From contig JAQGDQ010000035.1 in assembly GCA_030141605.1 (NCBI GenBank), positions 620,001 to 684,000 on the forward strand: a stretch of 64,000 nucleotides of DNA. Direction: 5' to 3'. Source of the DNA: Tubiluchus corallicola (Eukaryota > Priapulida > Priapulimorpha > Priapulimorphida > Tubiluchidae). Position 1 is the first letter of the stretch. Each line of letters starts with the position of its first letter. Below, piece after piece: positions 7,601 through 55,102 of this stretch. A program made the translations under genes and the position numbers. The notes under the pieces are model-generated. The model saw only the letters and a list, made by a program, of their open reading frames with translations, was not told the DNA's origin and did no database searches.

Positions 7601-10600
7601 TACTTCTATACCTGTAATACTACACACATCGGTTAGTAGGTTCAGTCGGTTAATTGGGTCAAAACACGTCGGTCCCAAAGTGAGTCTATTAAGCGGTGCT
7701 TACTGTAGTAAATTTCACTCTTTTTTTAGATGTTGGAGAATCGAAACTGCAATTGTCAAAGTTAGTTCCTCAAAATTTGCTTGAGCAGTTTATGCAAATT
7801 TCTAATGACTTGTAAGCCCAAGTGGGCTGGAAACAGCTTTAATAACATTTTACAGTATTAATTAACACATGAAGTATTACATTGTTATTATCATATGTTT
7901 ATGTCAATAAAGATATTCAATCAATCTAATGGCTTAAATTTTAGCTGCAAGTCTGTTCTTTTGGAATTACTGTACCATTACCGTTTTTTGTACTAATACA
8001 CTAACATGATTGTATTATTTGGGCTAAACATATATGAATAGATGGTAAAAAAATAAAACTGAAATCACATAAAAAGTAGAGTAGAGAAAAACTATACTAA
8101 ATTAAGTTCATCTTTATCAACTTAAATCAGCTTACATGAATCTCATCAAAGCTGCCAAACTGCAGTGTTTTGTACTTGTCAATGGGTGGCCGGATGTACA
8201 TCACAAAGTCATTCTTTTTCACTTGCTCTAACTGCCTGACACAGGAAACGTAAGCCAACCGTGACTGAATTTCTGTCATGTCTGGTACCTGAAATATTAA
8301 TATTTAATGAAAAAAACTGTGGCAAAAAGTAAATGCATTGTCCAACCATGTTTCTTCTTATCATTTTACAAAGCTTATTAATTATTACATCTCATCTTCA
8401 AAGCTGAATGTATGGACAGTACTGCTAGCCGCTATTGTGGCCATATCAGACTGGACATTGGAATACAGTACATGTATATACAAAAGGGCTAGAATTTCAT
8501 AAGATTTATTATTTATATTTAACGGAAATGATTGAAGGCAAAATCAGGGACACTATATCTGGGGAGCATTCCATGTGCACAAAGTCATAGGGAAATTTCA
8601 TTCAGGGTGTTGTGGCCGTCAAAGATAGGCTATATTGTCAGGAGACAGTTGTTTTTGAGCTGATTTAAGTGGCGCAAGATTTGCCTCATTTCCTGAAAAT
8701 ATCTACAATAATGTTAAGATAAGCAAAAATAATCCAGAAGTGATAATATCTATGCATAAAATTTACATATTAGTTCATAATCTTGTCTAAATGGTAAAAT
8801 TGAACATGATTTATCATTTCATTTATTTATTTTTAGAATAAACAATTTCAGATTGCCAACACAAGTGAGTAATAGAGCTTGCATAATTCAGTCTATAACA
8901 CAAAGGTTACTACATACAATAAAGGAATTACCAGTTTGTTAAGTGATAAAATTCAATTTAAATTAAAACTTTTTTCTCTTGACCAGTCTACTTCTCTTGA
9001 ACAAAGATCAAAGAGAAATTTACAAGTCATTTTTGGAAACGTAATACTGTGTGAAGAGTTTACAAATACAAAATTACCCGAACAGGTGTTACCCAAGGGT
9101 TCCATCGCTTCCACAACAGCCACCAACCTGATAACTCATCACCATAATTGGTCAAGTCGGACTCATCTTGACTTCCAACGTCTATAGCTACTACTCTATA
9201 AGCACCCATTTGACGAATAACATCAGCTAAAATATAAAACTTCTGCATAATTTTTCGATGCCACAAAGTTTTCTATTCTGAGCAGAATAGCACGTCTTAC
9301 TGATCTGGTAAATGTAGGTCACATTGTACTTTTGTGTAACTTTCAAAATGTTGATTAAATTGTTAAAAATTTGGATACCTTTCTTTATCAATATTTCACT
9401 AAATCAATACAAATTTATCAAACATACATCATTTTTATGAAAATTAAGAAAAAAATTTGTTTAATCACTATTTCAACATGAGCAATTTGTTCAAGAAATT
9501 ATATCACGATAAAAACTGTAAGACAATTGTTGTAAACGACATCAGCAAAATAAAATTCCCACAATCAATTCATTTAAAAAAACATGGCAAACTGTGTAAA
9601 AATAACAATTTCAGAGTAATACTATCACAATATTTTCATCAGTAAATTTTGTCATTTGCAGTGCATATACATGTAATTTAGCCATAGCTAATCATTCGTT
9701 ATAACCCTATCTCCCAACACTCAAAAAAAAACTAGCTGCTATTACAAAATAGATTGTTTGCTAAGTAAAGTGTTTTGGCATCATTTACTTGGGACAAATT
9801 TTACTTAATATGTGAATATAAAAACAGTAACAATAATAATTTAATTTTTAGGGGCACAAATGCTCATGTTAATGCAATTTGGTCTAATTAGTTTCACAAG
9901 TAATCACAAAATAATCGATACTATTATCACTGTGGCAGTACAAAAAACATTTATAAGCTTTTTAAAATAAGAGTAAATTCACATGCAGCAACAGTAACAC
10001 TATAATGTATAACAAAAACAACTACACAGCTAATTTATTATCACCCAAACCCATATAAACTTAGAACACCGTAGCAATAATTACCATGCACATTACAAGC
10101 ACATGCTTAGAGAATAATGATCACCTGGAAGATTATTTACATATGCTCCATCAACAAGAAGATGTCCGTCTTTTGGATCACACATTGGGGGAAGATAGAC
10201 AGTGATGGACATGCTAGCACGTACGTACCTCCACAAATAACCTGTGGGAGGTAATTAAAATCAAATTCAAATCAGTGCTGCCTCACCTGGCAAATTATTA
10301 ACATATCCTCCATCAAGAAGTAGATGCCCATCCTGTGGATCACACAAAGGTGGCAGGTAACCTGACAGAGACATACTAGCGCGGACGTACCGCCACACGC
10401 TTCCTACACGGAATAAAATGTACAACTTGTAACCCTACTAAAGTGAACAAATAAACAAAGCAAATTAAAAGTGGACTTATTAAAGTCAATTAATGTTTAT
10501 TTTGTCAAAATATAAGAGCTGCCTGATTATTTTATTGCAGAATAATTTATTTAAAATTTTCAATCAAAGCTTACCATTTTCATATAAATTTCTCCACTGA

Positions 10601-13600
10601 AGTAAGTGGCTACAGAAGAAAAGTGAAAATATGAACAATTTTCAGAAAATAGAACAATAGTCCTCTTAAAGCAATGCTATAGTTTAAGGTAAAAACATGT
10701 GTGATAAGGAATTCCACAGACAAGAAGTTTAGGGGAAAAACAGGATTTATATAAGTTGCTCTGCATAAGATGTTTCGATACTTTCTGATCAGTGGGACTA
10801 ATTAATGTTTTAATGTCTCTCATAACACCTTTAATGATAGCTGTTTGTTATGTAACTAACACGATAAAATTTTTAACCTGAGCAAAATCGTTTTTTCATC
10901 TACCAGCTTCACACGTTTCTTTAAATAGCATGTGTATATACAGCTTAACAAGTGTCAAACTTTAGATGTATTTTTGAGTAGTTTGTTTGATAAAGGCTAA
11001 ATGTGCATAATACTGCATAATTTAGAATTTTTGGTAACTCCTTTACTGCCAGTTTAGTTTATACAACATCATCACTAAACACTAAAGCATGAGAAAATGC
11101 AGAATTGCAATCAGCCAAGTGGAGAAAATATTGCACGGAAACCAGTTTTTCAGGTACCCCTCTTTCCATATTGCAAGGGATCACCTCTTACAAAGCCATT
11201 GTATATCGGCAACTATAAGTATGGCGGCATGCAATGGCATGCCATCAAAGTACCTGTTCCACAGAACTGGCAGCGCGGAGGAGGTAAGAGAGAAAATTCT
11301 GGCAAGTTATTCCTTAAAAATTCTTATTTGCTTTGTCATTTTGGAGTAGTTTCCTAAGAATTAAAACTCTCTTCAATCCAGTCTTGAACCCTAGACCTCT
11401 TGGCTGCTGTCAATGTTACCATATTCTAGATTACTCACTAAGTCACAGTTATTATGGAAATAAATTCTTTCATTACTGAGCAGTGCCGAACTTTAATGCA
11501 TGTGTTGATTGAACAAATGGTGATAATAAATATGAATGATGATAAGGAAAGCTGTTTTTAATACAGAAGTTGAAATGGCAGACAAAAAAACAAACCTGAT
11601 GTATGAACTCTCATTGTAGAAGATGTAATATCAGTTGTAATGCAAAAGTATGGCAACCACAAATCTTCGATTTGCTTATCTTGAAAGACAGTCTCAATGC
11701 TCCTGTTAAAAGCTGCACCTACGAATGAAATCAAATTATATGTCATCTAATTGTTTCATCTGCAAAAGTTGAATGAACAAGTTCACAAAAAGGCCAACTT
11801 AAACTTAAGTTCCATATTCATCTTCCAAATCTGATCAGTCGAACTAATTAATGTTTTAATGTCTCTCATCTTCCAAACCTATCAAACAGACCTACCAAAC
11901 TATAAATAAGCAAAAAAGGGAAAAAAACAACAAATTTCTGTTTTGAAATCGTGGAATATTAGGGGGTTAATTTGCACCATTTCATGGCTCAATACATAAG
12001 AGCTTTAGGTAGGGTTGAGAGATGAATGGAGCCACTTATAGGCCAAATTCTGGATAAAATTAAGTTAAACACAGCCAAATTTAGCCAACGCTGAGCTTGA
12101 AAAATAGCTAAAATAAGTGAAATCTATGAGGTGAATTTCACAGTTAAATAATACTCATTTAAGGTAATTCTAAAGTACTATTTTATAATTAAACCATTTT
12201 TGTTTCAATTTTGCAGTATAAGCAATAACTACATTTCCTTTAATCAACTAAAGGCTGCTGGACGGATTTTTCAGAGTAGGAATCTACAGAACACGACCAT
12301 TTAATTTAGAAATAAAGTTATAAAAATTACACTCTGTGTTGTAAAACATATTAAATATTTTTTCTTTGTTATTTACTAGCAAAAAGACCTGACCTGAAGC
12401 TGTGTATTTGTTGACATAACTAGCTCTGTCACTAGACCTATATACAATCTCAATTGATTAGTGATGCTACATACAGCACTGCCAACTTATAACAAGAACT
12501 TTGCCAAAATCCGATTGTGAACTTGATCTTGAATTAAGTTTATTCTTTCTAAGAGGCACTCGAACTTCAACTGAGTTCATTTTACTCTTAAAGAACTTGG
12601 AACAATTGATTTTCTGATGGAACTTGCCCACCACTGTGAACACAACAGCAATCATCAACAGGACAAAGACGAGAAATATACTCACTGAAAACAAATAAAC
12701 AAACAATAAATAATAAACCATTCCAGACTATTTTACCTTCCTGGTAAGAGCTTATCTAAGCTAATTAATAATGCGAAATAAAAGACCATTACCTTCAGCC
12801 ATTTCTAATGTTATAACATTGTATTGTCTAGAACAAGACTGCATCCCATGGATTGATGCATATTATTCAAGACATAACTTGTAGCATATCATTCAACAGT
12901 TTATTCTGCAGGGGCATTAGAATTGAATTCACTAAAAAGTGACCTTCTGAGGATCATAATATATCATACAGAAAGAGTAGTGCATTACTCTACAAACCAC
13001 TACAAAAAACTGTCAAACATAAAATCAATGAGTCACAGCAGTAGTGCTGTAGACATAAAACAGAATTTCACAGAAGATTAACATTGTTATACTATAAAGC
13101 CTGAGGTGTAAAAAAACTCATTTGTACCCTAGGTTTATACATACATTGAAAATTGCGAAGTATGTATAGAATTAAATTGACAATAAAGCATTGGAGGATA
13201 CTACATTAGCAAAAATGCATTACACTCTGTAAGCTCACTATTTTCTAATTAATTTAATTGCCAAACCACTGAACATAGACTAATCTGTATGGTGGAATCT
13301 CTTGGGCTCCTTAATGTATCTCTGCACTAACTGAAATATGAGAACATATTGATTGTGGCCAAATTTATGGATTACAAAATAGAAGAGTTGATATTTTATA
13401 CTATGTATTGAAATTAACAGCCATGGTATCCAGAGTTTTTGAAGGAGTTGGCTTCTACTTGCAATCTACAAAGGGGCAATGAAGCAGATAATGGTGATAT
13501 TTTCAGTATGATATCCACACAAAATTTTTTACTGATAACGTTTCCAGTAGTGTCCTTACAACCGTGGATACAGATGGTCATTAAGTTGTAAGGAACCAAT

Positions 13601-16600
13601 TCTTAACCTCCGTGTTGTGTGATCACACCAATCGTGTGATGAATCACAAGTGGAGTATTTCCGTATGTAAAATATTTCGGTCAATTAAGAAAAACCTAAT
13701 TACTAATTAATTGCGCTTAGATCATGACGTTGCAACTAAGACAGACTTTGAAATGTAGCGTGCCATGCATTGAAACACTCACCAGAAAACATTGCAGTGA
13801 TTGGATATGTCAAATCAAGGACTTTTGTCCAAAGGGAAGTCATGCCTTTTGCCCACTCTCTGGCACGCTGGGTAAACCTAGTTATGTTCCTCTCTTCGCA
13901 CCACAAAGCACCCATGATAGCACCAATGCTTGTACCACCAACCATGTCAATTGGAATTCCATATTCTAGCATTGCTTTGATCAATCCAACATGTGATGCT
14001 CCCCTGAAAATTAAAATTTAAAAACTTCAATATCCAATTAATGAAAAGCAACGAATATATATTAATGAGCATACTATGAAAAATGACATTTAAACATCAT
14101 ACACAAAAAAGCTGCGCACAAAAAGTGCACATACCTGGCACCTCCTCCACCCAAAATTAGGCCAATTGAAGTCCCAGTTAGAAATCGTGCCAAGCGAGAA
14201 AAATCAGAAAAACGATCAGGAGGACTAGCAAATACCCGATCATACATTTCTTCCTAGCAATAAAAAAGAAACAACATCAATAAACATACAACATAGAATT
14301 TACACTAAAATAACAAAAATTAAACATTTAGAAAGAACACTTTGTATACTGCATGAATCTTAAGAAATGCGCAAGAATCTGAAGGTGGAGATGCACTAAT
14401 GAATTAGTAAAATATCACTTGAAACTACTTCACTGCTGCACAAATCAACACACAAATTTGAGCGGACAATAAAAATATTTCTGTTTCTGTCTAATCGCCT
14501 GGGTGATATTTTTTTATCATACATCCGGACAGGAATTCTATAAAAATTTTTGTGCATTCATATATTTACCCGATGCATCCATATAAAACAGCATTTTTTT
14601 AATTTAAAACATAAAATGTAAACATTATAACATTGTTATTTCGGTGAGGATGCAGCCATGTTTTTCTACAGCTAACTTTCGGACAGGGCTGCCATTTTGT
14701 ATGATGCTGATTATCGTATTGGAGGCTAAAAAGTATTGTATTTTCCACCAAACCAGTGTATTAACGAGCGAGTTGTGTTGCCACTCATACCATAATTATA
14801 AGAACATAGGTTCATATTGTATAAAAACAGACAATACGATAATCGAAATTATATGGTAATTTAGTAATCCGAAACAAAAACTAAAAAACTAAGTATGAAA
14901 AAATATGCGTTGAAGAAATTTAAAACATTACTGTTAACCAGTGGGAAATAAACAAACTTTGATTTCAACTGATTTTAAACATTCCAAGATTTAGCTCTAA
15001 ACATTCACAAAGCTTTAAAAAAAATTTTCTTTACTCCCACTGACATACTTTCAGCTCATGAGGTAAGACAGAAACAATTTTTTGTGGGTAAGCCTTAGCA
15101 ATGACATTACAAATAAAATGCAGGAATTGAGAATAACATGCGAAATGACAATGTACCATTCTTGCAGGAGATCTTTTAAGAAACATCCTTTTAGGGCAGC
15201 GAATGTGATGATGGGAGGTACACCAATCACGCATGTTCAACCATTCAGCTGTACGAGAAGGACTTTGTGCATCAGAATGGTGCAAAAGAACTAATTCTTT
15301 CTGTGCTCTCATGGCAGTTTGGCTCAATTGCGATTCAATCTAGTAAACAGAAATATCACATGAAATAAAGAACAAAAAAATTGCTAAACTAGTAAAACAC
15401 AATATTTTGTATAATGCTTTTTGTACACTGATGTGGAGTGTAATACTGGATGATAACAAAATTAATTCTAAGTACAGAAGTTTACAGAACATTCTACCAG
15501 TTTATCGTTTTTTACAATCTACATACAAGACTTACTTAACGGGCAAATACTTGCAATGTAATTTTATAAAAAAATAAAATGTTGACACACATCAACATTT
15601 TGTTAATTAGTTGATGTGTTAATTAGTTAATTAGTTTAAACTTTTATAATTATGTAATTAGATCAGATGCCAAAAAGTTAGCTGACGCCAAACTCCAAAA
15701 AAGAATTTTAGTGAATTTTCTTAACTTTTACAGTAAACAAATTGTGTTAAAATGGGCAGATAAAACATAAACACAAAGAATTTCTGCTATAACTAGAAAA
15801 TACCTTGCCAACTGAGGGCTCTTGATTAGCTAGAGCAACGATTAACACACAGTCAGCATGTCGAATGCAACGCCGAGTCCAAGGAGTCAGTTTGTAGTCA
15901 CACATGTAAAGAACAATTCGATGCATATCATCTTGTTGAGCCAACCAGCTGGATAAACGATAATCATTAATCTGATCTAAAGCACCAGGACCAAGTGTCT
16001 CTTTAATAAAACTGCTTGTTAATCTCATTGTGGGACCTGAAAAAACATAAAATGACTTACTAAGCAAGCTGGCTAAGCTGAGCCAGTTTGTTAATATGCA
16101 ATTTGAAGTGAGTTACAAATTGAATTACAAAAAAAGAAAACTGATGAATTTTAATATCCATAGTTTGTGGTTATTGACAAGAAGTCACCAAGAATTTTTT
16201 AAAAAACACACAACAATTGTTTAAAAAATTACCAATACACTTACTAACAAAATGATATAATTTATGATTTCTCTTAAGAAACTTATACTGTACCAGATTT
16301 CAATTTATTCTTATAACATCTGTTAGCAGAATAGCTGAAATTTCTTGGCAAAATACCTCTACAAAATGCATTTGAGCATAATTAATTCATTGGTTTTAAT
16401 AATATCTTCCATAATTATTATGATACAGTATAATAATAACATGTATTAATTGCAAACTTATCATCAGTACCTATTCTGACTTTCACCTTTCGCCTTTTGA
16501 ACACAAAACAATACAATGTACGCTATAATTTGCAATGGAAAACATCTGTTCCACTTTTGAAGTTAATATGTGCAAGGTTTTTTCTTAGTGTATACAAGTA

Positions 16601-28600: not shown

Positions 28601-31600
28601 GAACGAGTTCCGGGTGAAGTGACATCAGTAGTACAGCGACGGGGGTTTCACATTTGTTGAAACACAGGCATAATATTATCATGGAAAAAAATGTTGCTAA
28701 ACGTATTTTCGCTTAAAAAATATAAGTCATGTTGAAACGAAACGAATTTCATCTTCTTCTGCCTAATTACATATTTAAGGTAGCTTAACAGAAAATGGCT
28801 TCATTTAATGGATAACTTCGTCTAAAATAATGCTACTCTTGACTAAAGATGGCAGCACAAGATTGGAACATTAAAATCAATACATCAATATTATCAATCG
28901 TTAGGTAAACAATTCGTGATACCGTTTAGTGATATTTAATACTTAAAGTGAAAAATAATTAGTAGCAGTAATCTGCTAGATGGGGGACCATCACACAAAG
29001 AAATCATTCGACCATTCGACTTTTCAAAAAGTAGTGTTAGTTTTAAAAAATTATTTTCTGAAGAGTTCTTTTTACTTTTTCTTAAGTCTCATTCCTATTT
29101 TTTTCCTTATGACGATGCAAAAAGGCATACTTTTATTATTACTTGTGGTGTCTCTCTAGTACCATCACATGTAGCTTATTAGTTCATTTCATAAGGCATC
29201 TATTCATTTCTTCATGTTTAGCCTTGACTTTGACTTTGGCATTTGACTTTGTTTGAAACAATTTGTATAAAAATATTTTAAAATTTATAATTTTGTGAAA
29301 CATAATTCGTATCCAGATCATAAATTTGAAAAAAATTTGAAAAAACAAAAATGTGACCTTAGGAAAGCAACCTATAAGCAATTAAAATGTTTATATTTAA
29401 TGTTTGCTTTTCCTATGGGTAGGTAGCAAAAGTATTGGAATAAATGGATAGGAAATCATAATCAATAATCAAGGTAAAAATAACAGCTCTAGGACACATG
29501 TTAAACTACATGTACAATAACAACATAAAATTTAAGATTTTTTATTTATACAGCTTGTCGAAGAGCTAAAAAGCAGGCAAAAAGCTGTGTTCTCACACCA
29601 TTTGTTTCAGCAGAAACCAGGTGACACCTTGTCTCAGCAAAATGCTGCTTTCTCACACCAGGTATAACAATCTCAGGTACGTCTCCTAATGATATATAAT
29701 TAGCTTATAATACCGGGTTTTACACATGACCAAAGTGTAGTACACATAGTTTTCTACCTACCGTACACTTTTGAGCATGTAAAGTACTTCTGGTGGAAGT
29801 TCTAGCTCCCTGTCTTCTAGTAGGTCTTCTTCCAGGTATTCTGGCGGAGGCTCTTTCTGCTGCAGCATAACTTTACTCTCTTTCTTTGGCACACGCAGCA
29901 ATCTAGGTATCAATAGAGATAATAATTAAGCTAAAAAAGTACTTAGTAAAACAATGAAACATCAAAATATTTGACCTATCACTTACTGAAATGTCTTCAA
30001 AACATTAATGTCTTCATTTTTTCAAACTGATGTCAAATAGTTTAATTAATTTCACTTCATGTAAAACATGTAAACAAGTAAAAACAGAAGAGCTGAATAG
30101 TAAAAGAGCTTTCAACTAAGTTATTACTCTTCACAGCTTGCATAATGCATGGCTTGTTACTGCAAAAATTTTGCTCCAGTATTCTTGTCCCTGTTATGAA
30201 GGACAAAAATGGGAACATTTCTAACACCAATAATTATCGCCCAATAGCACTATCACCTATTTCAGCAAACTTATGGAGCAAGCTTTCATGGAACGCTATG
30301 AGAACTTGTTACCATCTACGGATAACCAGTTTGGCTTTAAACATGATCTGGGCACTGAAATGTGTATTTTCACCTTAAAGGAAATTGTAAATTTTTAAAC
30401 GTCCAAAAATAGCGTGATTCATGTATGTTTTATAGATGCTTCAAAAGCATTTGATAATGTCAACTATTGCAAATTATTTCTAGAACTTTATCATACTGAT
30501 TTTCTAAAGATAATCTCGCATTTACTGTATACAAGGTATGAGAAACAGGAACTGGCAATTAGATGGGGGAACAGTATCTCAGACAAGTTTAATATGTCTA
30601 ATGGTGTTAGGCAAGGCAGCTGCTTGTCTTCTAAACTATTTAATACTTATCTTTGTAAACTGAATCGCACCTTAACAGAATCAAAAACTGGCTGTTTTAT
30701 TGGAAATGTATATACTAATCATCTTATGTACGCTGATGACACCTGTCTGATTGCTTCTACTATAACGAGCCTTCAGTATTTATTAAATTTGTACATGAAG
30801 TGTGCAGCACAATGTGATATTAAGGTGAACTATACGAAAACAAAACTTTCAACCTTCAAACCGTTAAATTATACTAAATTCCCCACAGGAAATATTTATG
30901 CAGAAACTAATACCATTAAAATCTTGTACAGAAGAAAAGTACCTAGGCCATCTTTTAAAAACAGATAAAACAGACAATACGGATACTGACCACCAGCGTT
31001 GTTTGTTCTACATTCGATCAAACAAATTAATTAGATATTTTTCTAACTGCAGTACAAAAGTCAAACGAACATTGTTCAAAGGTTATTGCTCTAACTTTTA
31101 TTGAGCCACATTATGGAATAACTATTACAACTACGGCTTAAAGAATTTAAAAGTTGCTTATAATAAAGGGATCAGAATTTTGTTTAATCTAAATTACAAC
31201 TGCTCAACTAGACAAATGTGTATGGAACTAAATTTACCATATTTTGATTTTATTATTAGAAGATCACTAAAAATTAGAGCTACTAACACTTACAATGAGT
31301 TGATAAATAATATATTTAATGGCGACTGTTTATTGATATCTAGATTGTATAAGCATTGGAATAAATGCTTACATACTGTAGCCCAATAAAGTAAAGTTGC
31401 AAATATTGTAAATACTTAATTAACTGTATTTAATTGTGAGACACTGCTAACTGATAATTGTATGTTGATTTATATGTATGTTTGTTTGAGAACTATAATA
31501 TGTATTGTAATATGGACTTTGTTCTGAAATAAAAATATTCAATCAATCAATCAATCATAAGCTTAGATTCTGAAAGGGAACAATGACAAGAGGGGTATTA

Positions 31601-42670: not shown

Positions 42671-44035
42671 ATGCGTGTATTTTTGTGAATGTAGTTAAAT
42701 GTGTTGTTAGCTCAGTGTCTAGCTCAGTAGGATTAACTGCCTGCAATGAAATGTCTTGTAGCATTACCTGAGATACAAAATTGACAAATACAGACTGTTA
42801 TTGCAATATGACTGTGTGCTGTAACTTGCAATATATGTAGAGCTTACAATTCCTGTTTCTCAATTTCAAATGTGTACTAGATTTTCTTTGGGCTAGGGTA
42901 AAGTCAAAAATGACAAAAGTTAAAAAATAATTAAAATTCAACTTGTAATAATGCAAAGTAAAGTTATTATAAATAATGATGTTAACTACACAAAATTTCA
43001 TATCTGATTTCTTTTTATAGTACATTATACAATATTTGTAGTACTTTCTTAATATGAAGTTGATATGACTTAATATGACTACGCCTAGTTATTAATTTTT
43101 TTATGCCAAACTTGGGTAAAAATGGAAAATGAAAATGTAAAACTGTTGCAAGTAAACCTGATATGGGTTTTTTGGATACAAGCAGAACATCTAACTACTT
43201 TTTGTAAGAAGTCTAAGATGCACCCACTTCTGCTGAGTACATCCTCATGGTTAATTGCTGAGTTTTTATGACAGATAAGATTGAAGGAACGGAGATTTAG
43301 TTAAAAGGAATAGTGGTTAAAATATTGGGTTGGTAAGATATATGAGTATAAATTTATCATGGTAAAGTATAAAAGTATTTTACTAAAATGTGAATTTTCT
43401 GCACAAGAGATGATAATGATTTAAGCTTACCATTGGCAACAAGCAAGATAATTTACAAAAGTTTACATGTTGGAAACCGTTGACTTTCAAAGTAGCATGT
43501 TAGATCTCAAAAACATCAACGTGTTTATTAATTATCTGATCTTGAACTCCAAACTCAAATGTTGACCTTTTAGCTGTTGTATAATGCAAAATGAAGATGA
43601 CACTATAATCACTTTACTGGTCTGCAGGATTCCACTAGGTTGGGTAAGATTTGCAAAAGCCAAGAAAAACAAGTTTTAAATATTTAAGTTTGTTTTATCA
43701 TAATCATTCTTTAACATCATAATAAACATCAAAATTGATAGTTTTGTTTATCATAATTTTGTTAACTGGAAAACCTTTAGCCAGAAACTAAAGTTTAGTC
43801 AGAATAGCTAAAGAAAATATGAAGTAATTAAATTCTTGGCAAATGAATACCTCCATATTTTAACATACTTTCATTATAATGTGACTGACATAACACAAAA
43901 AAGGCTAAAAATATTGGCTGTGATGAAATGATTCAATTTCAGAAATGAATAGCGTGTAATTCATTTGCGTGTAATTTAAAATGTGGTATGAGCTGAGACT
44001 AATTTTGATATTTTCAGGTAGAATACAGGTTCAAC

Positions 44036-47000
44036 ATGTGGGTGCAAGTTAGAAGCTTCGATGGGAAGAAGTCAGTCCGTGTTGATGGTCTATCAAAGTT
44101 AACAAAGGTGGAAGATTTCCGGAAGCGATTGGTTGAGTTGTTTGACGCTGATCCAGAAAGACAGAGACTATTCTACCGTGGCAAGCAAATGGTCGACGGC
44201 CACACGTTGTTTGATTACAACGTTGGTCTTAATGAGATTGTACAGATTATGATTCGCCCAGTTTTAACCAATTCGGACATTAACTGTAACAACGACACAG
44301 CTGGTGAATACATCATACTAGCATCAACTTGTTTGCCTAGATCTTTTATTTATTAATTTGTACAGTTTAAACATATTTTAGTAGCAGCCAGAGTGATGCT
44401 TAAAGTAGGCATTAGACAACAATGTTGAATGTCATTTATTGGCATGTGAAATGATGCAATTCAAACTAAACACACAACTTATTTTGAATTTTTCTTTGCA
44501 CCGAAAGAACAGACAACCCTTCTTTTATAAACTCGCTTATTTTATTCAAATATGTTGTTGTTTTTAGTGTGCAGCACATAGTTTATAAGTGATTTAATAA
44601 GTACCTTAGTTTGTTACGCAAATGTAATTATATTTATCAACATTGCACAATAATGAGTTGTATTAACATCAGTGAAGAAAGAATATGTCTATATTACTTA
44701 GAGACAAAAATTATGCATCAACTCTGAATTTCTGGACAGTGTAGTATGAAATAGCTTGTTAATAGTAGGTCTAAAAATGTTTTTATACCTTTCAGTTTCT
44801 GTATTTGTACCACTTGTTGCAGAGTAGTGATTTGGTTATATAGATTTTGGTACTGATAAGTTAAAAAAGCATTTTACAGTCATACCTCTGTTGTCGAATG
44901 TCTCCGTACTCGTACAAATCGGTTTTCAACCAGAAAATTCGTGCTGAAATTGTTTCCACTCTCGACCAACCGCCAAACACGTGATAAACACGTGTGGCGA
45001 GCCGAGTAGAGCTGAGCGTAATCGACCGCGCATGAGAGTAGTCATGCACAACATTTGAATTGCCTAACATCACTAAGGGCTTTCTACGCTTATTTTTCTC
45101 CGCTTTTTCATGCAGGAACAATTATGTTTTTCTTTCAAAGTAATTTTATTATGTTTTTCTTATCAATTATATCATATCTACTGTTTGAATAAACATTTTT
45201 GCATTATTATATTTCGTTTTAGTAATACTTTACAGTTCATTTTGTGCTTGAGCAGAGGTACTACTATACTATCTTATAATGGAACAGCTTGTCTTTCTAA
45301 TCTGTTGTAGAGTTAAGGAAGTAAATCAGACATGTTAAAGAATGACCGCCTCTGTGTTTCACTCAGTTTGCTGGCGACCAACTATAGAAAAACTTCAAGC
45401 TATTGGTGAAATACAAACAACTGTGTACATTTTCATGATGTGTATGAATATATTATTTTAGTGTATGACATGTTCTGCCACTGTTCTGACATACTATTCT
45501 AATTTGTTAGCCTAATTTCACCTAATTTTTTTCTTCAGAAACCGAAGATGCGAATGGAAACAGTAGTGGTGATGAAAGCTGCTGCTCAGAAAAAGAGAAC
45601 AAAAAGGAGAGTGTTGTAAGAGAGGAAACTGAGAAGCATGACCTCCGCCATGACAATGAAACTAGTAGCAGTTTATACAAGATTGGAGACCTAATTGATG
45701 TTCGAGATAATTCTACAAATGCATGGTTTGAAGGTACTGTGAAAAAAATTACTGAAGACTTTGAAAGTCATTCTGCTACTGTCAGTCATAATGGTATTAT
45801 AACCAGTGTTGATTTGACAAATGATACGAAATCTAACATTACAGATGGGTTTCTATACCATGTCACATACGACGCATACCCAGAAGATGGTATCGTACAG
45901 TTTAAATGCCAAGACATTCGGCCTCGTGCTCGCAAGCTTCTTTCCCTATCTGAACTTAATATTGGCGATATAGTAATGGCAAACTATAATTATGATGAGC
46001 CAAATGAGCGTGGATACTGGTACGATGTAGAAGTGGCCAAAGTCTGCAATACTCGAACAATAAAGTTGCTGTTTGGATCTTTGCACATTGGAGAAAATAA
46101 AGCTGTTTTGAAAGATTGCAAAATACAGTTTATAAATGAGATATTTAAAATTGAGAAACCAGATTCAGTTACGCCTCATTGTTCACCTGTGAAAAGATTG
46201 AGTAAGCCTGAATGTGACCACTGCGGTGACAATCAGCGGAGAAAATGTAAGCATTGTGGATGTAGCATGTGTGGAGGAAAAAATGATCCAGGCAAGCAAA
46301 TATTATGTGATGAGTGTGATGATGCTTACCATATTTATTGTCTTAACCCACCTTTGGAAACTATTCCCGACGAGGAGGAGTGGTACTGTCCTCTTTGCAA
46401 AAATGATAGTAGCGAAGTTGTGCAGGCAGGAGAGAAATTGAAAGAAAGCAAGAAAAAGAGTAACATGGCTTCCGCTAAAACTACTTCTTCTCGTGATTGG
46501 GGCAAAGGTATGGCCTGTGTCGGTAGAATGAAGGAATGCCGTATTGTTCCTCCAAATCACTTTGGTCCAATTCCTGGTATTGAAGTGGGCATGATCTGGA
46601 AGTTCAGAGTTGGAGCAAGCGAAGCTGGCGTTCATAGACCCCATGTAGCTGGCATACATGGACGAGAACATGACGGCGCTTATTCGATTGTATTATCTGG
46701 AGGATATGAAGATGATGAAGATTGTGGTGATTCGTTTACGTACACGGGTAGTGGTGGTCGAGACCTTTCCGGAAACAAGCGTACAGCAGAACAATCTAGT
46801 GACCAACTTCTGACAAGAATGAACCTGGCCTTGGCCAAAAATTGTTATGCGAAGGTTGATGCACAGAAAGGTGCCGATGCAGGAGATGACTGGCAGTTAG
46901 GGAAGCCCGTAAGAGTGGTGCGAAACTGCAAAGGAAAAAAACATTCAAAGTACGCTCCCGAGGATGGTAATCGGTACGATGGTATATATAAAGTAGTCAA

Positions 47001-47634
47001 GTATTGGAAAGCTAAAGGGCAGTCTGGATTCAACGTGTGGAGATATCTTTTGAGGCGGGATGATTCGACGCCAGCTCCCTGGACAAAGGCTGGACAAAAG
47101 AGGATTAAAAATTTGGGTATTGAGATGCAGTACCCTGATGGCTACCTGGAAGCTGTGGCTGCAAAAGAAATAGCTAATGGCAATCAGTCTGCAGACAAAG
47201 AAGATTTAAAAACAAACCGCAAGAGAAAGAGCAAGATAAATGGTGTGAGAGAAGAACCGCCACAAAAGAAAAGCAAGCCAGCTAAGAAATATGAAGTTAG
47301 CCCTGAGATTCATAAACTTGTTAAATTAGATGAATGTAATCGGAAATTATGGGATGAATGCCTGAAAACAGCAGAGGACGGACAAAAACAGTTCTTATCA
47401 TCAGTTGAGGAGCATTTTTCTTGCATATGTTGTCAGGATATCACTGTTAAGCCTATTACAACCAAATGCTTACATAATGTTTGTCAGCCTTGCCTGAAAC
47501 GTTCATTTGCAGCTGAAGTTTTCAGTTGTCCTGCTTGCCGCACAGAGCTGGGAAAAGATTATAGCTTGGCAAGTAACAAGAATCTGGTTTCAATTCTCAA
47601 TAAATTGTTTCCAGGTTATGAAAGTGGGCGTTGA
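44036..47634 (+). CDS. UHRF1: UHRF1: E3 ubiquitin ligase and hemimethylated-DNA reader
   Basis: Two coding exons, 44036-44303 and 45539-47634, join in phase 1 to give 787 residues (human 793). Domains in order: ubiquitin-like (1-77, MWVQVRSFDGKK...), tandem Tudor (about 133-290, including VTYDAYPEDGIVQF that supplies cage aromatics), PHD (about 314-382, DECDDAYHIYCLNPPL), SRA (about 427-590), polybasic segment (about 649-675) and RING (about 717-757, CICCQD...CPACR). The SRA keeps YTGSGGRDLSGNKRTAEQ with the NKR finger used in reading hemimethylated CpG. In animals it brings DNMT1 to replicating DNA and ubiquitinates histone H3, so its intact state predicts CpG methylation here. A noncoding upstream exon is expected (acceptor at 44017). 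The single coding intron is unusual. Confidence 0.97.
44304..45538 (+). other. UHRF1 coding intron, with one end of a TIR element
   Basis: Donor CTG|GTGAAT and acceptor TTCTTCAG. From 44877 it contains a transposon-like end, CAGTCATACCTCTGTTGTCG, preceded by TA; the sequence then resembles the terminal region of pogo/Tigger-like elements to about 45030. A matching inverted end was not found, so it is a fragment. Confidence 0.6.
44978..44994. promoter_or_regulatory. Two CACGTG E-boxes 11 bp apart
   Basis: CACGTG at 44978-44983 and at 44989-44994, inside the repeat in UHRF1 intron 1. Two palindromic E-boxes one helical turn apart. They are part of the repeat, so function for UHRF1 is doubtful. 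Confidence 0.3.
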
Positions 47635-51774: not shown

Positions 51775-53067
51775 CAATAATGATGTTGATCAGCTTATAA
51801 CCTGAGTTTCAAGATAATAATTTAAACGTAAACAGAATATCGATCGAACAGTTTTTTTACACACATGGTTGTTATATTGTGAAGGCAGTGGAAACAAAGG
51901 TTGCTGTTTGAACGGTTTGGTCTTGACCACTGCGGAAGCGAAAGAAATGAAATTGAAGGTCAGCTAAACGGACGTGTCCACTTAGGCGTTTCAGTTGAGC
52001 TTGAAATTTTCATATATTCACGCCACGTGAGGGGCAAGATCAGTTTTGCTGTCCAAGGTCGACCAACGTCATAATGTGAACGTGTTCGTGTTTTTGTCTG
52101 TCGAGTAGACATTCATTGCCTGGAGACAAGGTTCACGACCCAACAAGGAATGGACAAAAGAAGGTCACAATTATTATTAAATAGTCAGAAATAGACGTGC
52201 TGATGTACAATTCCCGCCTGACCTTAGTCCTTGAACTGGCTAAAAGTTAGTTATAATGACCAGTGACCACACAGGATTAGGCTGTGTTTTGAAAAGGCGA
52301 TTACAGAGTCGATTAAACTAGTATTACAAGAACAGAGGCCGGGTAGAGTCAAAGGTTACATGAAATTGCCACCGAGATAGTAATTACATTACAAAATTTT
52401 TTCTGGAGTTGCTTTATATATTCACTTACGTGGCTGAGAATGGCATTCTATAGAATACCCGATTTCACACTTTGTCTGTAATATATATACAAATATTTTG
52501 GGTTTATATTTTTAAAAATAATATTGTTTTTTTGGGACAAACGGAGTCTAAAATTCGGATTTCTTTATTTTATTATCTATTTTAATTTTTTCTGTTTTAA
52601 TGTTGTTTTAAGTGTCAGAAATTACCCGGATATTATCACCACAATAGTTTGTTATATTTAATTGTATGCACCTATACAAATTTGAAGAATATAACAATGT
52701 TGATTAATTTTATGACTGTGCTTTCCAAACTGCGTAAAAAGTTCACTGAGAGCACCAAGCTTAAAAAGTTTTTATCTTCCATAGATTATTGTACAGGAAA
52801 GAAATCCGTGTAATAACTCATCTAAAACATTTAACCTAGATGAGACGAAATGAGATTAGTCGACCATTTTTTAAGTCTTTGATATGATTTAGCTATGGAA
52901 TTCAACCCACAACTTCCTGCATGGAAAGAAAGCACGCTACTTGAGAAGTAAACCTGGTTAAGTGACAGGTTAACCGTTAAAACTATATGTAATTAATAGA
53001 CAGAAGTTCTTATATGCTAGTAATTAACTGTTCAAATATTATAAATCTGTTGTACCACACACACGCT

Positions 53068-53270
53068 TCATTCATTCACTCATTCATTCATTCGCACCAT
53101 TATAAGCTTCATTCATTCGTTCGTTCGTTCGTTCATTCATTCATTTATTCATTCACTCACTCATTCGTTCGTTCGTTCATTATTTCGCTCGTTCATTCAT
53201 TCACTCGTTCATTCATCCACATGTTCATTTATTGGTTCACTCATCTGTTCATTCATTCTTTCAGTCATTT
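53068..53270. repeat. TTCA/TTCG tetranucleotide array
   Basis: About 200 bp of TTCATTCA, TTCGTTCG and ACTC variants in a 4-bp period. A 93-codon open frame across it (Phe/Ile/His/Ser only) is a by-product of the repeat. Confidence 0.95.
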
Positions 53271-55102
53271 CTTCTTCAACGAATTCAGTTTTTAATTACC
53301 ACTATTTTTTTGGCATAATAACGGAAGACCATTACAACATTATAGTGACAATTGACAAAAACGTTTGTACCATGGAAGTCGTTTTGAAACTTGTCAAATG
53401 TCAATTTTTCTAGTTACGGGTTGTGTTAGGTTTCGCAAAAGTCAGACAAATCCCACTCGAAAGATAGACATTGAGTTTTGTTGAAAGCAAAACTTTTCCC
53501 ATAGCAATCAGGCAGCTGAGCGTCCATCTGTACACCTGATAGATTAATAATTAATTCACTTGTTCGTATATCAGAATTACATGTTGCTGCTCTATCCGAG
53601 ATAATCTCACTGTACAGTGTACAGTGCTCGTACCTGGATGTTGTTGTTGTGACAATTTTTTGAAAAATGAACGCTCGCAAAAAGAATTCATGGTTTTGTT
53701 TTCCGTTTTCATCGCTCAGTTTCGAACCCTTAATAAGTAGACCTGAAGTCGAAACGAATAAGGGAATTCCTCACACACCGAAAACATGTAGCATTGTGGC
53801 ATAGTGTGACTAAGTGTCATTTGAATTTTCTAGTACTTCACAAAAACTTAATGTGAATATTCGATTTGATTAATTTATAATCAACAAACGATTTGTTTAT
53901 CAGTGCCTAACATTCGGCCTTGGTTAAGTGACAAGTACTATTGCTTGTGTCACCCCTTTGCAAGAGAAAATATGAAAATTTTATTTGTATGACCTACTTT
54001 TAAATTGTGTACTTGGAATCTAGAGCCACTGGACGCCTAGCGGAGTGTAGGCCTATTCGTCAACATAATTCTGGATTCAAGGTTTAGGTAAACACATGCA
54101 CAAGAAAGTTTAGTAGAATATTGTTGATACAAAACACCATAGAATGTATCCATGCTGCATGATCTCAAATAGAATAATAATATTTTAATTGGTAACTGTT
54201 ATTACTAAATTTTATGTAAACACAAAGGCCGCGTATATTAGACATGCCATCTTACCAATCCTATTTAAAGTACATAAATCCAATTAAATAAGATAGGCTT
54301 GAGTAATTACTGCTCATCGCTGAAATTCTGTGAAAATATGCAGATCGAATTCTTGCAATGTCCTGCATTATTTCTTTATACACCCTATTACTTAGTTATG
54401 GAATAACTCGCTATTAAATAAATTTTCTCTAAGAGATTTGAACAATAAACCCGTTCAACGCCATCATCATTGCGCTGCACAGTTCCTTGTGATCAAAATA
54501 GTGGTTAATTTAGAAAGCTAGCCTAACAGTTTGCCAACTAAAGCAACAAATTCAATGCTTATTTTGTTCATGTTAGCGTAATTGCTAACTGGACTAATTT
54601 TTGTAATTAATTTTGAGTTTTTAGACGCCTGAATTTGTGAAATTTTAAAAGTATAATGCGCCAATGTAATGTGGTGCTTTGTTTAAACTCTGTTTGTTTA
54701 TTTGCATCTGGCGTTATCTTATAAAATCGCATCCTTATTAAATTAAAATAACTTCCCACGTCTGTAGATATTAATTACAGTTAAAATGTTTTGTTTCAAA
54801 TGAGAGTAAATTTACTTAGATACTTGCACTTTGAAATGAAATTACGTAACTATGATAATGAGTTGAAAGTGTGTCAATTTAGAGCTTAGAGTCTATAAAG
54901 TATAAATTTAACCAAAAAAGCTAATCTAATTAAATAGAAATTATTCATAAATTAATTAGAAATTTCCGGGTTTAAATACAGAGGTTCAACTGCGACTCTT
55001 CACATTTCCTTTCCTTTGGTTAAAATTTAGTTACTATTATTTGGCAGTATATTTTTAGTTTATAACAAAACATCAAACGCCTGCATTTTCACGTAAGTCC
55101 TG

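Follow-up and report, generated by a model that had tools for sequence, protein, structure and literature searches.

The window analysed here, a stretch of 64,000 nucleotides from the priapulid Tubiluchus corallicola, carries on its minus strand (4500–27100) a gene for the nerve-protecting enzyme NTE (PNPLA6/7, Swiss-cheese type). The intron model covers about 27.1 to 6.5 kb, and further 3' exons were recognised by eye down to about 4.5 kb. Upstream of the esterase domain, the gene encodes three cyclic-nucleotide-binding stretches, which profile PF00027 recognised in the joined upstream exons (one stretch with 40.1 bits and two stretches with 118.8 bits). The esterase domain is a patatin domain with a Ser/Asp dyad, GTSIG and DG, as named for NTE in the main text of PMC9025805. 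The catalytic Ser lies in GGTSIGA and is encoded (codon 13930–13928) by an exon at 13783–14003 of the minus strand, placed by Pfam and by the exon model. The catalytic Asp is encoded twice, by two successive exons that are the subject of this work.

These exons, 24a (10287–10403) and 24b (10125–10241), are both on the minus strand and 117 nt long; the number 24 is a label that follows the numbering of a preliminary description of this DNA. They were identified from the sequence, the exon model and the Pfam Patatin profile. The Asp codon occupies 10314–10312 in 24a, where it begins the motif DGG, and 10152–10150 in 24b, where it begins DGA. Between the two exons, the sequence holds a GT-AG intron of only 45 nt (10242–10286, minus strand). 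According to the exon model, the shared exon upstream of the pair (11596–11718, minus strand) ends with RVHTS and leaves in phase 1, and the shared exon downstream (9078–9226, minus strand) is entered in phase 1. Each copy is entered and left in phase 1 and has intact AG and GT sites. On recheck, the coordinates, lengths, phases, splice sites and 45-nt spacing given in the preliminary description all proved exact, and the Asp that it had reported to be kept in both copies was located in each.

The main text of PMC3228551 recognises mutually exclusive exons by several features: they are internal, adjacent and homologous, their lengths and reading frames are alike, and their splice sites are compatible. 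Exons 24a and 24b are adjacent, homologous and internal, with lengths of 117 and 117 nt, phases 1/1 and GT-AG sites. No third copy was found in the flanking introns (13730–9232). When each exon was joined to its neighbours, the Patatin profile (PF01734) gave 104.0 bits with 24a, 102.9 bits with 24b and 71.7 bits with neither. We also noted a 40-nt direct repeat, 95% identical and with its copies 1046 nt apart (10784–10823 and 11830–11869), the first copy lying within the intron that precedes 24a and the second within the intron before that; it is perhaps the remnant of a mobile element.

A second NTE locus, combining patatin and cNMP domains, was not found in the 343.5-Mb assembly. A search of the assembly with the patatin region gave nine matches, of which six were exons of the NTE locus, including both copies. 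The other three (on C1531, C197 and C1597) are distant, with 29–32% identity, and lie in long single open frames. The Patatin profile gave eight matches in the assembly, among them partial ones on C1463, C463 and C344. Those on C344 (7497–7745 and 53693–53884) are broken by TGA codons only (3 and 2, respectively); the contig could be that of an organism reading TGA as an amino acid, or the matches could be decayed copies. Full-length chaperonin frames, open and free of stops (249–261 bits), were observed on C1531, C1597, C1761, C846 and C2335, the first two of which also carry patatin frames of 761–782 aa; these five are perhaps bacterial contigs within the assembly. A second type of long open chaperonin frame (508–566 bits) was found on C1923, C1917 and C2279. 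The assembly also contains at least 37 homeodomain matches, and the 14 of them that were examined include lab-, pb-, Hox3-, Dfd-, Scr-, Antp/Lox- and Post-like sequences, a set that by itself points to a bilaterian and perhaps to a spiralian. COX1 was not detected. Profiles for cuticle proteins (PF00379) and molluscan haemocyanin (PF14830) had no match in this assembly, but they had none in any of 14 control genomes, and their silence is therefore of little weight.

The plus strand of the window holds other features. A UHRF1-type gene (44009–47634) comprises a frame with a ubiquitin domain followed by an open frame of 702 aa with tandem tudor, PHD and SRA domains, and would be compatible with a DNA-methylating animal. 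By eye, we recognised reverse-transcriptase-like open frames at 1132–2158 and 30097–31389, which are probably LINE remnants, and overlapping Ser/His/Phe-rich frames at 52993–53413, which apparently come from a short tandem repeat.

The two copies are identical at 86 of 117 bases (26.5% differ) and at 30 of 39 residues (E = 2e-24 in a BLASTP of the two 39-mers, a value that refers to this one comparison only). Codon by codon, 15 of the 39 are the same in both copies, another 15 carry silent differences only and 9 encode a different residue; the differences fall 9, 3 and 19 times on codon positions 1, 2 and 3. The preliminary description had put the divergence at about a quarter of the bases with some 15 silent codons, which agrees with these counts. 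It had also proposed an estimate of dN/dS between the copies: dN was 0.14 and dS 2.1 by the method of NG86, and 0.16 and 1.56, respectively, by that of LWL85, hence a dN of 0.14–0.16 against a dS of 1.6–2.1. A maximum-likelihood method gave a dN of 0.12 and a dS of 20.9, which means saturation.

The protein-level constraint claimed on the basis of the silent codons was further supported by a neutral test, in which 31 random substitutions were placed on either copy in 100,000 trials per copy. On average, about 19 amino acids changed per trial, and none of the 100,000 for either copy had 9 or fewer; 33–40% of the simulated copies were devoid of stops. At the DNA level, the repeat was detectable at 10121–10235 and 10283–10397 with 77% identity, i.e. 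over almost exactly the extents of the exons, indicating that similarity has been lost in the flanks while the exons are still alike. This is as would be expected for an old duplication under protein-level selection. The data thus support the view that 24a and 24b are an old tandem exon duplication with constraint between the copies, and both versions have apparently been kept intact by selection. The measure of constraint is an average over the histories of both copies, and therefore cannot by itself show that each copy is used today.

We compared the segment with 33 rows of bacterial NTE-like patatins (L020–L052; the segments of L020 and L022 do not differ). This set was obtained by a bacterial patatin-domain scan that led to one locus, followed by a search of the phylum around its genome, in which 75 of 198 genomes matched (E ≤1e-15) and 30 loci were returned. 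Six positions of the segment are invariant in all 33 rows, and four of these (A9, P19 and, in the dyad motif, D31 and G32) are retained in 24b. At position 14, where the bacterial residue is Pro in 33 of 33 rows, neither copy matches, Ser being found in 24a and Thr in 24b. At position 15, Gly in 33 of 33 rows, 24a has Gly and 24b has Val; PlpD (PDB 5fqu) has Ala. At position 33, 31 rows have Gly and two have Ala, the residue also present in 24b. It is 24b that carries the residue of the bacterial majority at positions 13 and 30 (27 of 33 rows each), the residue of 24a being present in two and one of the 33 rows, respectively. Because their patatin scores are nearly equal and the dyad is kept, both forms of the enzyme look catalytically competent. 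It is plausible that the changes beside the active site shift the substrate or inhibitor preference of the 24b form.

Whether the two exons are used together or in turn cannot be read from the frame, which is kept when one, both or neither is included, while retention of the 45-nt intron leads into stops. Any exclusivity would therefore have to arise in splicing itself. The only YTNAY branch-point candidates in the 45-nt intron have their adenine at +15, +26 and +32 (10272, 10261 and 10255), and there is no adenine from +35 to the last four bases. All the candidates thus lie less than 35 nt from the donor of 24a. The steric threshold for the distance from donor to branch point is given as about 50 nt in the main text of PMC7969005. 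Rough scores of the splice sites facing the small intron were 7.0 for the donor of 24a and 4.6 for the acceptor of 24b; the outer sites were weaker (1.8 for the acceptor of 24a and 3.1 for the donor of 24b). Strong inner sites are also what a small intron that can be spliced would look like, and this counts against exclusivity.

Among 20 other introns modelled in the NTE gene, the shortest was 131 nt (119 nt in one second-best junction model); the modelling left one gap without a solution, and its result for 15048–14254 is doubtful. We extended the comparison to exon pairs of other genes lying at most 8 kb apart. The shortest intron estimate was about 100 nt for 38 myosin pairs (Pfam exon matches, all 93 listed; 65 of 162 candidates scored; the near-identical matches lying in both orientations on C917 count more than once, and so do two alternative first exons of C1359) and about 163 nt for 20 chaperonin pairs (37 of 48 matches used, 11 long or isolated ones being left out). 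One further pair, on C402, with an estimate of 11 nt (1 of 21 chaperonin pairs), was rejected as an intron, as it reflects a break in a chaperonin frame that is open elsewhere. In-frame introns do not appear to be hidden within the matches: none of the 93 myosin matches has 30 or more bases beyond the profile span, and six of the 48 chaperonin matches do, but at least five of these are full-length frames without stops, pointing to an insert rather than an intron. In total, none of the 78 introns or exon pairs sampled fell below about 100 nt, the sample being small, with 58 values estimated from profile gaps and some genes counted twice; the intron between 24a and 24b does not reach half the length of the shortest. 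The statement in the preliminary description that the intervening 45 nt are very short is thus supported within this sample. The mutually exclusive splicing that it proposed is a probable reading, which the frame does not enforce.

In the course of this sampling, we observed on C1359 two matches to the same N-terminal stretch of the myosin head (111012–111194 and 110374–110547; profile positions 28–88 and 27–84). Both precede the next exon match; they are separated by 464 nt on one strand and contain one and two stops, respectively, perhaps from running beyond the exon ends. It is possible that they represent another exclusive exon pair in this genome.

Taken together, these observations make it quite probable, in our judgement, that 24a and 24b are mutually exclusive, tandem-duplicated exons within the patatin active site of the NTE gene. 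Both exons could instead be spliced in together, always or alternatively, so that the catalytic domain would gain a repeat of 39 residues. The good scores of the sites that face the small intron and the conserved frame are compatible with this, some animals splice introns of about 45 nt, and the joined sequence gives 121 bits with the Patatin profile in two stretches, the repeat being counted twice. However, the intron would be less than half as long as the shortest of the 78 others, and a core segment of the hydrolase with its catalytic Asp would be doubled. We regard joint inclusion as unlikely.

Alternatively, an old duplicate may have fallen out of use and stayed intact by chance, in which case 24b is the likelier of the two. 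This would fit the Val of 24b where all 33 bacterial rows have Gly, and the dN/dS between the copies mixes both histories. Against this, frame, splice sites and catalytic Asp are intact in both exons at a saturated dS, 24b has retained four of the six positions invariant among the 33 bacterial rows, and it is nearer to the bacterial majority than 24a at positions 13 and 30. Disuse of one copy therefore appears quite improbable. An artefact of assembly or haplotype is hardly conceivable: the 279-nt region spanning the pair has a single match in the 343.5-Mb assembly, which together with the 26% divergence argues against two haplotypes, and the 45-nt spacing is equally unfavourable. Nothing in the assembly was found to support it. 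The interpretation as exclusive splicing thus remains the likely one as judged from the genome sequence, and the animal probably makes two forms of NTE by using one exon or the other.

If the exons are indeed mutually exclusive, each mRNA would take either 24a or 24b, and two full-length enzymes would result, with a common catalytic Ser, the Asp kept and nine different residues across a 39-residue segment. Joint inclusion would be blocked because U1 at the donor of 24a and U2 at whichever branch point the 45-nt intron offers would clash. The two enzymes might differ in their preference for substrates or organophosphates.

A possible regulator is suggested by the intron after 24b, in which a motif scan found three GCATG on the minus strand, at +19 (10102–10106), at +36 (10085–10089) and at +139 (9982–9986), the latter two within TGCATG. 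We take GCATG to be a Fox-1/RBFOX-type motif; downstream of an exon, this motif promotes use of the exon. Of the 21 introns modelled, only the one after 24b has two GCATG within the first 100 nt; the same stretch of one other intron contains a single GCATG. The probability that a 100-mer drawn at random from the minus strand of the window contains at least two was 0.0075, in a test made after the motif had been noticed. For at least three in a random 140-mer it was 0.00016, but the 140-nt frame after 24b holds two, the third starting at +139 and being cut. Within those 140 nt, the enrichment of TGGGT exceeds that of GCATG, and exon 24b itself contains one GCATG. Because GCATG was tested only after being seen, regulation is a lead only, at which the cluster after 24b hints. 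Pieces of Fox-1-like RRM exons were found at two loci of the genome, with 79–92% identity to a human RBFOX RRM probe, and one of the matched pieces contains a TAG. A Fox-1-type factor acting on the cluster might increase the use of 24b in some tissues. More speculatively, the pair could be a switch of protostome or older origin that vertebrates have lost, in which 24b, through its Gly-to-Val and DGG-to-DGA changes, confers an altered lipid or organophosphate profile under tissue-specific, Fox-1-type control; we consider this extended scenario doubtful.

The fly gene sws is X-linked and is identical to CG2212. The main text of PMC9025805 mentions, for this Drosophila orthologue of NTE, two isoforms of 1425 aa each, and equal lengths are what an exclusive pair of equal-length exons would give. 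A similar exon pair may already be annotated in flies. Presumably, the fly isoforms differ within the same 39-residue segment as 24a and 24b; if so, the present pair would extend the arrangement to a second lineage, and it would be ancient or convergent. Fly genetics could provide a quick test if the isoforms correspond to the same pair. Mutually exclusive exons have been searched for by a scan of the fly X chromosome (PMC3228551), and neither sws nor CG2212 appears in the main text of that paper. We found alternative catalytic exons described neither for NTE or PNPLA6/7 nor for sws in the main texts of the literature searched. The claim of the preliminary description that none is known in PNPLA6/7 stands to that extent, but the two sws isoforms of equal length make it weaker than was stated.

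NTE is the target in organophosphate-induced delayed neuropathy, and mutations in NTE or its fly orthologue lead to neurodegeneration, as stated in the main text of PMC9025805. If invertebrates make two forms of the active site, work with a single cDNA tests half of the gene, and the pair would offer a natural swap experiment on the substrate and inhibitor preference of NTE.

Ketohexokinase (KHK) is a different enzyme from NTE and has another fold. Its tandem-duplicated, substituted exons resemble 24a and 24b in adjoining the active site of an enzyme, and the catalytic Arg108 is present in both isoforms according to the main text of PMC9741552; it is an annotated event in humans, whereas our pair is known from genomic DNA. 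OGDH, like NTE a metabolic enzyme, has two duplicated exclusive exons, 4a and 4b, and the main text of PMC7969005 ascribes their exclusivity to branch points too near the upstream donor and to a size-restricted intervening intron (in mammals and birds it measures 118–131 nt, and its distant branch points lie 25–41 nt from the donor). In the NTE pair, by comparison, the whole intron is 45 nt long and the branch points are only predicted. Alpha-tropomyosin (Tpm1) is a structural protein and not an enzyme. In the rat gene, intron 2 shows steric exclusion with a distance of 41 nt between donor and branch point, as reported in the main text of PMC7969005. Mutually exclusive homologous exons are thus a well-studied kind (main texts of PMC9741552, PMC3228551 and PMC7969005), and what is of interest in the present pair is its place within the catalytic dyad of NTE.
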